Of a stretch of DNA of 64,000 bases, positions 6,022 to 62,309 are shown one piece after another (within the stretch, counting starts at the first letter, position 1; every line of letters begins with the position of its first letter). The position numbers were made by a program, and so were the translations under genes. The stretch comes from Planctomicrobium piriforme. GTDB taxonomy: Bacteria; Planctomycetota; Planctomycetia; Planctomycetales; Planctomycetaceae. The stretch covers positions 1-64,000 of the forward strand of contig CAMATH010000031.1 of the NCBI GenBank assembly GCA_945860955.1, written 5' to 3'. The notes beneath the pieces were generated by a model. That model did not search any database. It was not told the origin of the DNA and was given only the letters and a program-made list of their open reading frames with translations.

Positions 6022-6122
6022 CGTTGTCTTCCACCGTTCGGTTGTTTCGCGGTCATTCTCCGTGATAAACGCCGCACGGCGTCAAAACAAACTCGCTGCG
6101 CTCGCGAGTCGTTGAATTTTCT

Positions 6123-6385
6123 GACAGGATGAAAGGGATGAAAAGGATTTCTGAGGCGATAGTCAATCGTGTGGATTGGGAGTTTTTCGATTTCAGCCAC
6201 TTATCCAGAGAGCAGGAATGGCGCGCAACTCCATCCTGTTCATCCCTTTCATCCTCTTCATCCTGTCAAATTCTTTCCGTCAGTCGTACGCATTCTCATC
6301 GCTGTACAACCACACTCCGCAGTTCTGCTTCACGGCCCACTCGCTGCATTCGCTGGCCTTGGCACTCAACTTGGCCTCCTAGCGG
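6123..6385 (+). repeat. Dispersed intergenic repeat element, copy A (about 263 bp)
   Basis: This segment matches the reverse complement of 61819-62091 along nearly its whole length, by eye at about 75-80 percent. It starts with a purine-rich arm (ACAGGATGAAAGGGATGAA) and holds its inverted counterpart at 6233-6267 (CATCCCTTTCATCC core), so it can fold into a hairpin with about 85 nt between the arms. A 68-codon frame (6176-6382) stays open in both copies, but many differences change amino acids, so coding is doubtful. The rest of the gap 6022-6582 holds nothing I can name apart from TATAAA at 6484, which has no good -35 partner. Confidence 0.8.
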
Positions 6386-6582
6386 GCCGTTGATCTCTCA
6401 ATCCGCTCAAGGCGGATGTGGCCGTCGCCAACCCCCGCCGCCAACCGGCTCAAATTCAATGTCGCGTTTTCTGCCGCGTGGAGTATAAACTGGCGAAGTA
6501 CGAGTCGACATTTTCCCCCCCGCCCTTGATCCACCGCCAGACAACCTCGGTTTTTGGCTGCGGATTGGAAAGCTGAGATTCA

Positions 6583-31694: not shown

Positions 31695-31753
31695 GACAAC
31701 TCCTCGTTTGCAGGCTATATCGCGAACGGGGTAAAGTCGGACATCCAGTGAGC

Positions 31754-31862
31754 GACCCCTTGCCGGCTTGCCCGGCAGGTGAAGGAGATCGGTGGCTAAC
31801 TCGACACGCCTCGAATGCGACTCAGACCCCTGCCACGTCCTGTGGCAGGTGAATCAGATCGG
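31754..31862. repeat. Two tandem stem-loop units with matched base changes
   Basis: Two units of about 38 bp, 71 bp apart, share GACCCC, a TGCC..GGCA stem-loop and GGTGAA..AGATCGG. In unit 1 the stem is TGCCGG/CCGGCA (31761-31777); in unit 2 it is TGCCAC/GTGGCA (31831-31847). Both halves changed together. The remaining gap 31648-32043 also holds the short repeat at 31961-31998 and nothing else I can name. Confidence 0.65.
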
Positions 31863-31960
31863 CGCTCAGGTATTGCAGTTGACGCGGATGGTACAGCCGA
31901 CTGCGAGCCCGGTGCGCTGGGTGAGTCGGCCGTGCGAGCGTCAACTGGCGTTTCGGTTGG

Positions 31961-31998
31961 AATTCGGGTGATCCTGGCCCCGAAGCGGGCCGTTGATT
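31961..31998. repeat. Short dispersed repeat (GATCCTRGCCCCG family), copy 1
   Basis: TTCGGGTGATCCTGGCCCCG followed by AAGCGGGCCGTTGATT. Near-identical stretches occur at 59562-59594 and 62253-62288, all between genes. The end of the element at 6123-6385 shares AGCGGGCCGTTGAT. Confidence 0.7.
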
Positions 31999-36867: not shown

Positions 36868-36885
36868 CATTCGTTGAAGCGATCC

Positions 36886-36908
36886 GCTTCATCCTCTTCA
36901 TCCTGTCA
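36886..36908. repeat. Fragment of the ATCCTCTTCATCC repeat family
   Basis: GCTTCATCCTCTTCATCCTGTC, the core of the inverted arm seen in the 6123 and 61819 elements, lies between the two convergent genes ending at 36867 and 36917. Confidence 0.6.
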
Positions 36909-36916
36909 AAAAAACC

Positions 36917-43681: not shown

Positions 43682-43755
43682 CTCGGGCCCAAGAAACCAC
43701 TAGAATTCGGCAAATCCCGTGCATTTGGCTCCCGATATCTCCCGTCCGGATCCTG

Positions 43756-43786
43756 TTTCCTCCTCTTCATCCCTTTCATCCTGTCC
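43756..43786. repeat. Repeat-family fragment forming the aroB leader
   Basis: CCTCCTCTTCATCCC followed by TTTCATCCTGTCC, matching the arm of the large dispersed element. It ends 4 nt before the aroB start codon, so the transcript leader of aroB is made of repeat sequence. Confidence 0.6.
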
Positions 43787-59427: not shown

Positions 59428-59512
59428 CGCGGATTTTAATCTACGCTACCCTCCGTACGACCGACGGAAAGAATTTGACAGGATGAAGAGGATGACAGGG
59501 ATGAACAGGATG
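59428..59512. repeat. Palindrome copy 2 followed by a truncated copy of the large element
   Basis: A palindrome-like copy (CGCGGATTTTAATCTACG) at 59428-59445, flanked by GGAGGGT and ACCCTCC, is followed at 59456-59512 by a segment that matches the reverse complement of 6236-6296 (GACGGAAAGAATTTGACAGG and on). The short GATCCTAGCCCCG repeat follows at 59562-59594. The gap 59293-59650 therefore consists largely of repeats and holds no gene I can name. Confidence 0.65.
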
Positions 59513-59561
59513 GGGTGGCTCGCCATTCCTTCTGTTGGGATTCAACGGCATTGCTGTCGGA

Positions 59562-59594
59562 GTTCGGGCGATCCTAGCCCCGAAGTGGGCCGCT
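59562..59594. repeat. Short dispersed repeat (GATCCTRGCCCCG family), copy 2
   Basis: GTTCGGGCGATCCTAGCCCC followed by GAAGTGGGCCGCT; see copies at 31961 and 62253. Confidence 0.7.
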
Positions 59595-59650
59595 AAATTC
59601 TTTCGCCCCTTCGACGTTGATCTCCGGGGCCGACCGGTTGCCTCGCATTG

Positions 59651-61707
<2,057 letters not shown>

Positions 61708-61773
61708 GTCGGCCATCGCAGATTGGAGGTGTGTTCATCCCTCCGTCTGCCGCTTCGCTTCAGTTGACACATG

Positions 61774-61811
61774 ACACCCCGATGGCCGCTTGGCTATCGG
61801 GGTGTTTTCTT
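61774..61811 (+). terminator. Rho-independent terminator of gap
   Basis: ACACCCCGAT (61774-61783) pairs with ATCGGGGTGT (61796-61805) around a 12-nt loop, then a T-rich run. It lies 66 nt after the gap stop codon. Confidence 0.85.
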
Positions 61812-61818
61812 TCGATGA

Positions 61819-62091
61819 CCCGCTGAGAGGCTAAATTGGGTGCAACGGCCAGCGATCGAAGCGAGGGGGCCGTGAAGCCGAACTGCAGAATGTTGTTGTG
61901 CAGCTTTGAGAGTTCGTACGACTGACATGAAAAATTTAACAGGATGAAGAGGATGAAAGGGATGAACAGGATGGAGTTGCGCGCCATTCCGGCTCTCTGG
62001 ATAAGTGGTTGAAATCGAAAGACTCCCAATCCCCAGGGGCGACAGTCGCCTCAGCAATCCTGTCCATCCTCTTCATCCCTTTCATCCTGTC
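61819..62091 (-). repeat. Dispersed intergenic repeat element, copy B (about 273 bp)
   Basis: This matches copy A (6123-6385) in the opposite orientation along nearly its whole length. The same hairpin arms and the same open 68-codon stretch are seen on the minus strand. The gap 61708-62309 is thus made of the gap terminator, this element, a degenerate hairpin copy (62160-62212) and the short repeat (62253-62288). TATACT at 62124 has no good partner. Confidence 0.8.
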
Positions 62092-62159
62092 TAAAAAGAC
62101 AACCGCCCGAATGCAGGCTAGGCTATACTCCGCGCGGCCCGCGTTGAAACATTTTGATC

Positions 62160-62212
62160 GAGCGGCACCCGTCAGGAAGCGGGATGATGATACCGCTTTC
62201 CGAAATTGTCTC
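62160..62212. repeat. 24-bp hairpin repeat, copy 3 (degenerate)
   Basis: The left arm (CACCCGTCAGGAAGCGG) is close to the copies at 14192 and 50472; the right arm (ACCGCTTTCCGAAATTG) has diverged strongly. Confidence 0.5.
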
Positions 62213-62252
62213 GTTTCCGGGCGTGTGAGCGTCTGCGGACATTGTGCCTGGG

Positions 62253-62288
62253 ATTCGGGTAATCCTAGCCCCGTAGCGGGCGGTTGTT
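62253..62288. repeat. Short dispersed repeat (GATCCTRGCCCCG family), copy 3
   Basis: ATTCGGGTAATCCTAGCCCC followed by GTAGCGGGCGGTTG. See 31961 and 59562. Confidence 0.65.
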
Positions 62289-62309
62289 TGTTTTCGCCGA
62301 TCGAAAACG

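Follow-up and report, generated by a model that had tools for sequence, protein, structure and literature searches.

A family of MITE-type elements in Planctomicrobium piriforme and its likely partner transposase

Repeat copies of the window

The window, by which we mean the whole stretch of 64,000 nucleotides analysed here (contig CAMATH010000031.1 of Planctomicrobium piriforme, assembly GCA_945860955.1), contains two related copies of a dispersed repeat in opposite orientation, the second of which is held in the T tail of an intrinsic terminator downstream of a GAPDH gene (GAPDH domains are found in the open reading frame 60397-61707). Positions 6123-6385 and the reverse complement of 61819-62091 can be aligned nearly end to end, at 82-83% identity (blastn 82.5% over 285 bp, E about 1e-81), as the original prediction had proposed, and the layout which it described, with a purine-rich arm, a spacer of about 85 nt, the inverted arm and about 120 nt of shared sequence, is indeed present. 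Its borders, set about 270 bp apart, were too narrow: in an alignment of 30 copies with their flanks the similarity extends beyond them, and the terminal inverted repeats (TIRs) that had been reported as not visible exist outside those coordinates, copy 2 occupying 61813-62286 and the right end of copy 1 being at 6392. The 270-base stretch is the inner part of the element, in which the arm-spacer-arm core is followed by a right module. The features are as follows.

6090..6392, + strand: copy 1, with a degraded left end, as aligned to 29 other copies; its right TIR (6372-6392) has two mismatches; of its left module only a trace is left, CTCGCTGCGCTCGCGAGTCGTTG
6123..6150, + strand: first arm of copy 1, purine-rich, with three 9-nt units
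6151..6231, + strand: spacer of copy 1; its identity to that of a full-length copy is 95%
6233..6267, + strand: second, inverted arm of copy 1, with four 9-nt units
6268..6392, + strand: right module and right TIR of copy 1; identity to the same module in a full-length copy is 88%
31697..31995, - strand: further member of 299 bp, with the same TIRs and left module and a different interior
36882..36910, + strand: stand-alone arm of 9-nt units, without TIR
43750..43785, + strand: stand-alone arm of 9-nt units, without TIR
59454..59595, - strand: shortened member, in which an arm and a portion of the left module, as far as a TIR, are kept
61773..61806, + strand: intrinsic terminator with a 15-pair stem, downstream of the GAPDH gene; its T tail holds copy 2
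61805..61812, + strand: copy of the target-site duplication (TSD) beside copy 2, TTTTCTTT, matching TTTGTTTT at 62287-62294 in 6 of 8 positions
61813..62286, - strand: copy 2, full length (474 bp), with both TIRs (TIR pair L013:1495-1968)
61938..62091, - strand: arm-spacer-arm core of copy 2 (L013:1620-1773 in alignment A5)

While the two near-full inverted copies are both real, the further member at 31697..31995, which has A/T flanks (ATTTTTTGA and ATTTTTTTA), had been overlooked. The three shorter pieces noticed earlier all exist as well; that at 59454-59595 is a longer, rearranged member, and the other two are arms only. As for the inverted arms, they are present but do not make a single exact hairpin: they consist of runs of 9-nt units (ATCCTGTTC ATCCCTTTC ATCCTCTTC ATCCTGTC, of the ATCCTGTNN type), the number of which is unequal between the two sides and varies among copies. 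Copy 2 has extra sequence within its left module. A GC-rich palindrome of the GCTTCCTGACGGGCGCGGCTC type, possibly a REP family of its own, lies inside copy 2 (window positions 62140-62230) and beside or inside several other copies (L003, L006, L029).

Ends, copy number and target sites

When the genome to which the window belongs, 8.4 Mb in 282 contigs, was searched with copy 1, 151 candidate places were obtained, and at least 40 copies of the inner part were scored among them. In the alignment of 30 copies with flanks, the full-length elements have CAACGGCCCGCTTCGGGGCTAGG at their start and CTTAGCCTCCAAGCGGGCCGTTG at their end, which make up an inverted repeat (CAACGGCCCGCTTSGRGGCTA) some 22 bp long. 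They usually measure about 380 bp (369-380 bp), with variants from 122 to 492 bp: among the TIR-paired elements, those of 122-123 bp are devoid of the core, those of 246-299 bp have deletions or other interiors, and the longer ones are copy 2 of the window, with its 474 bp, and an element of 492 bp in contig C61. Searches of this genome for the 21-base TIR gave 33 matches when one mismatch was allowed, against none for the reversed control, and 84 against 18 when three were allowed. Such a genome-wide search had been proposed at the outset, leaving room for an outcome in which the two long copies were alone or were remnants of a known gene; what it returned was a large set of copies with shared ends and target duplications, which supports mobility.

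The duplicated target is 8 bp long and rich in A/T. In the 19 elements with both ends (17 non-autonomous and two autonomous) the two flanks match on average at 6.5 of 8 positions, against 3.4 for permuted flanks, and none of 20,000 permutations reached the observed sum; chance matches are inflated by the A/T-rich flanks, which the permutation control, drawn from the same flanks, shares. The match is 95% at position 8 and at most 26% beyond. Many copies have imperfect TSDs, 58% being identical in at least seven of the eight bases; exact examples are AATTGAAG, which borders a 122-bp element (L048), AAAAAAAT, AGAAAAAT and ATTTTTTT.

Empty sites were sought by using the joined flanks of copies as queries against the sister genome G002. 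The copy in contig C39 has an orthologous empty site there, with flanks of 90-91% identity and 10 bp in place of the 394 bp found here, and at this place an intact A7 tract stands beside a terminator stem. A second, less tidy empty site corresponds to the copy in C207, with 33 bp in place of 284 bp and flanks of 79-86%. The locus of the 122-bp element, considered for the same purpose, was set aside as not clean, since neighbouring repeats of other kinds differ between the genomes. Two more high-copy repeats of about 165 bp were observed in the right flanks of L048 (after position 1529) and L015 (after 1770); both occur at dozens of places in the present genome and in G002, and that of L015 also comes in closely spaced series (for example C6:48130-48617).

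The element lands in A/T tracts, several of which are the tails of intrinsic terminators: the 8 bp before the TIR are 90% A/T, against 41% in the outer 40 bp. Just upstream, 25% of the T-tract ends occupied by elements have a fold of -14 kcal/mol or below, a share that is 5% among other T-tracts (the distributions of hairpin energy differ with p = 0.001). This enrichment in hairpins is real, but the control T-runs include coding ones, and terminators as the specific target were therefore abandoned in favour of the safer statement, A/T tracts. A preference for such tracts is also the simplest reading because terminators supply long intergenic T-runs. Insertions are shown in terminator tails rather than in genes.

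A candidate partner transposase in related genomes

Among 40 genomes, the present one and its relatives, the TIR (at most one mismatch) was met only here and in G002, which was one of the three congeners examined. Scanning the GTDB contigs added a MAG from Lake Baikal with the same TIR and a MAG from Lake Pavin, with contigs corresponding to those of G002. Matches in Bryobacter, Verrucomicrobia, Arthrobacter and the isolate J080 had no element sequence beside them, look like chance and were discarded. Many contigs of the Baikal MAG stop 120-146 bp into the element. Adjoining the TIR, they hold the C-terminus of an open frame ending in LLLAELEDRYQNTT, and at another place in the same MAG (L207) the TIR is followed, about 50 bp further in, by an N-terminal part of this protein; as the contigs are interrupted within the IS, only pieces of it can be read. 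In the Baikal and LacPavin MAGs the TIRs alone are common to MITE and IS, no similarity being recognised between the MITE interior and the transposase gene. The ends have diverged in a third genome, G509, where an assembly of 5 contigs contains two identical autonomous relatives of 1835 bp, with related ends and 8-bp TSDs, TAAAAAAA and AAAAAAAA.

A profile of the transposase C-terminus gave matches in 43 of 398 genomes of the class. It found no such transposase in the genome of the window, where, the assembly being in 282 contigs, the gene may be collapsed or unbinned; the PF01609 transposases of this genome, considered as partners, were rejected, as none carries the TIR. The C-terminus was absent from the viral contigs and, as an 86-aa query, from the plasmids. 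One contig of a Gemmataceae MAG (L108, Baikal-deep-G171) carries the IS end of the G167 MAG, with a transposase C-terminus at 100%, the result of either a recent transfer or mis-binning.

In G509 and in five other planctomycete copies the transposase is encoded in two frames, which overlap where a conserved A5-A6 run precedes G5; this suggests, as far as can be read from the genes, that programmed -1 frameshifting may operate at this GAAAAAAGGGGG-like run. The loci with ISNCY-type genes split in this way are L142, L143, L144, L145, L146 and L205. A homologue which fits in one frame, L150, has 537 residues; its plasmid relatives are 26-33% identical over 61-83% of the query, and one of them is annotated as an ISNCY family transposase. 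The ISNCY name rests on homology only, because no family model exceeded its cut-off: a Pfam match, MULE, stayed under it at E 8e-4, and NCBIfam gave none over it, the IS256 score being far below. In the structure predicted for L150 (pLDDT 77, pTM 0.58), the strands follow one another as in an RNase H-like core. According to Foldseek, the nearest solved structures to this model are those of ISCth4 (E 6e-8) and Hermes (E 2e-4), with low whole-chain TM-scores of 0.2-0.3, while the PDB had no sequence match for a 195-aa C-terminal part. Transposases of the IS256 type, such as ISCth4, and of the hAT type, such as Hermes, both make 8-bp TSDs.

The MITE is probably moved by the transposase of the related IS, whose action on the present copies we infer. 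This enzyme would bind the CAACGGCCCGC ends of the MITE in trans, and would then excise or copy the element, by a presumed cut chemistry. The element would be joined to an A/T tract through an 8-bp staggered cut, giving rise to the 8-bp duplication, and the tails of intrinsic terminators would be frequent targets of the joining.

Alternative readings and known systems

Two of the early suggestions, a structured RNA and a REP-like repeat, do not fare well. A riboswitch-like RNA or sRNA, with long pairing arms kept by selection, might be evoked by the stable folding of the strand (both window copies have a z-score of -5.8), but any inverted repeat gives strong folding. Four loci had no Rfam match at gathering score, and over 31 copies RNAalifold showed a two-sided change in one of 36 predicted pairs, with a covariation term of 0.04 kcal/mol, so that the good fold is best seen as a by-product of the inverted arms. 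Units of 9 nt are moreover gained or lost on one arm only, arm lengths thus varying independently, and copies sit in differing contexts and in both orientations; we hold an RNA to be very improbable. Little more can be said for a palindrome of the REP or BIME type, moved by a RAYT (a Y1 tyrosine transposase). Certainly palindromic repeats abound in this genome, and the arms are indeed inverted, yet REPs measure 20-40 bp, bear a GTAG or CGTC tag and are associated with transposases of the IS200/IS605 type (PMC3733652), whereas the unit studied here, about 380 bp long (122-492 bp), has TIRs of 22 bp and TSDs of 8 bp, and its partner has a predicted RNase H-like fold, all of which leaves this origin barely credible. 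Just as hard to credit is the decay of a protein-coding gene or of a known IS: the short open frame on the reverse strand of the right module might hint at a former gene, but frames are short and not kept alike among copies, no full-length gene aligning to the core was seen, and no PF01609-type IS of this genome has these ends.

The interior deserves separate consideration. The arm motif TCATCCYNTTCATCCTGTC occurs 138 times in the genome, against no occurrence of the reversed-pattern control. It has been tempting to consider that the arm-spacer-arm core is an older mobile or REP-like unit, made of ATCCTGTNN palindromes related to those around GxxExxY genes, which was captured between the MITE ends; such a history, which is compatible with the MITE explanation and refines it, we regard as a tentative possibility, somewhat short of even chances. 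In its favour, copies of the core are found in two different surroundings, and arms without MITE ends occur in this genome, also in two mirror orientations about 109 bp apart (for example L170-L177). There is a complete 122-bp MITE without core (L048, with its exact TSD), and a 123-bp unit lies inside 429-bp elements of G002. Similar arms were found in 60 of 392 Planctomycetota genomes, where control matches were restricted to a few genomes, and arms flank both sides of one of the two GxxExxY genes of the present genome. Against this, neither a TSD nor an empty site was seen for the core alone, and of 30 arm loci from other genomes, only two have a GxxExxY gene nearby. Both GxxExxY (PF13366) genes of this genome are bordered by pyrimidine/purine repeats of about 9 nt, of the ATCCTGT type at one (L031, in C66) and of the CCTTCGTTTCCTTTGTTGCCTTCTGTTC type at the other (L032, in C180). 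As a source of the element these two genes were rejected: arms are similar at one of them, and TIRs are absent. Of the arm loci in other genomes of Planctomycetota (L209-L238), several are short GACAGGAT...ATCCTGTC hairpins. Going further, the inverted arms of 9-nt units (ATCCTGTNN ... GACAGGAT) might be a separate, widespread palindromic element that spreads alone, perhaps with GxxExxY / PD-(D/E)XK proteins, and that, captured by the MITE, is now seeded into terminator tails where its hairpin may alter transcript 3' ends; this is a speculation, rather unlikely as it stands. The lead of the ATCCTGTNN palindromes could nevertheless matter more than the MITE itself, because they extend across many families of the phylum and because, in the literature searched, we found no description of arm sequences in this context or of such stand-alone palindromes.

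We come back to the MITE. Because TIRs, 8-bp TSDs, copy number, an empty site and transposase-linked relatives with the same ends are found together, the family is, with high confidence, a MITE-type (type II) non-autonomous transposon of about 380 bp with TIRs of about 22 bp, probably moved in trans by the putative DDE transposase of an ISNCY-annotated IS that has the same ends. The non-autonomous, MITE-like element of the original prediction is thus strongly supported, also by this autonomous IS in related MAGs. The traits of type II MITEs that sequence comparison can address are present, namely TIRs, a TSD of fixed length, short and numerous copies without transposase gene, an autonomous relative that shares the TIRs only, and an empty site. 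A repeat that otherwise resembles an unknown RNA or a gene remnant is now explained, and ends, target and likely transposase can be given for a MITE family of freshwater (lake) planctomycetes. The family is new and of a well-known kind, its landing in A/T tracts being mildly unusual.

Prokaryotic type II MITEs occur in many copies, at intergenic A/T-rich targets; their TIRs are 4-30 bp long, their TSDs erode with age, and they have sequence in common with the IS only at the TIRs (PMC10969869). The present family resembles them in size, TIRs, TSDs, copy number, target and TIR-only sharing with an IS; it differs by its GC-rich ends, by a target that is often a homopolymeric A/T tract, terminator tails included, and by an interior that holds variable arms of 9-nt repeats. 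For a MITE of Porphyromonas gingivalis an internal minisatellite is mentioned (PMC4596501), and to the extent of that mention the short tandem repeats inside are a common point, while the phylum is another one and the repeats here form two inverted arms, also found outside the element. In the literature searched, ISNCY, MITE and target-site duplication were found named together for Neisseria meningitidis only. As to the transposase, the nearest solved folds to the predicted partner are those of the IS256 type (ISCth4) and of the hAT type (Hermes). Its likeness to ISNCY-annotated IS, such as that of the Rhodovastum plasmid NZ_OW485604, is one of homology, at 26-33% identity. The planctomycete IS has the TIR CAACGG[C/T]CCGC and 8-bp A/T TSDs; for the Rhodovastum element, no definite ends could be assigned. 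In the planctomycete relatives two open reading frames overlap at the conserved A5-A6 run, and the Rhodovastum relative has an annotated CDS of 1510 nt, no multiple of 3, as expected for a frameshifted pair of frames.
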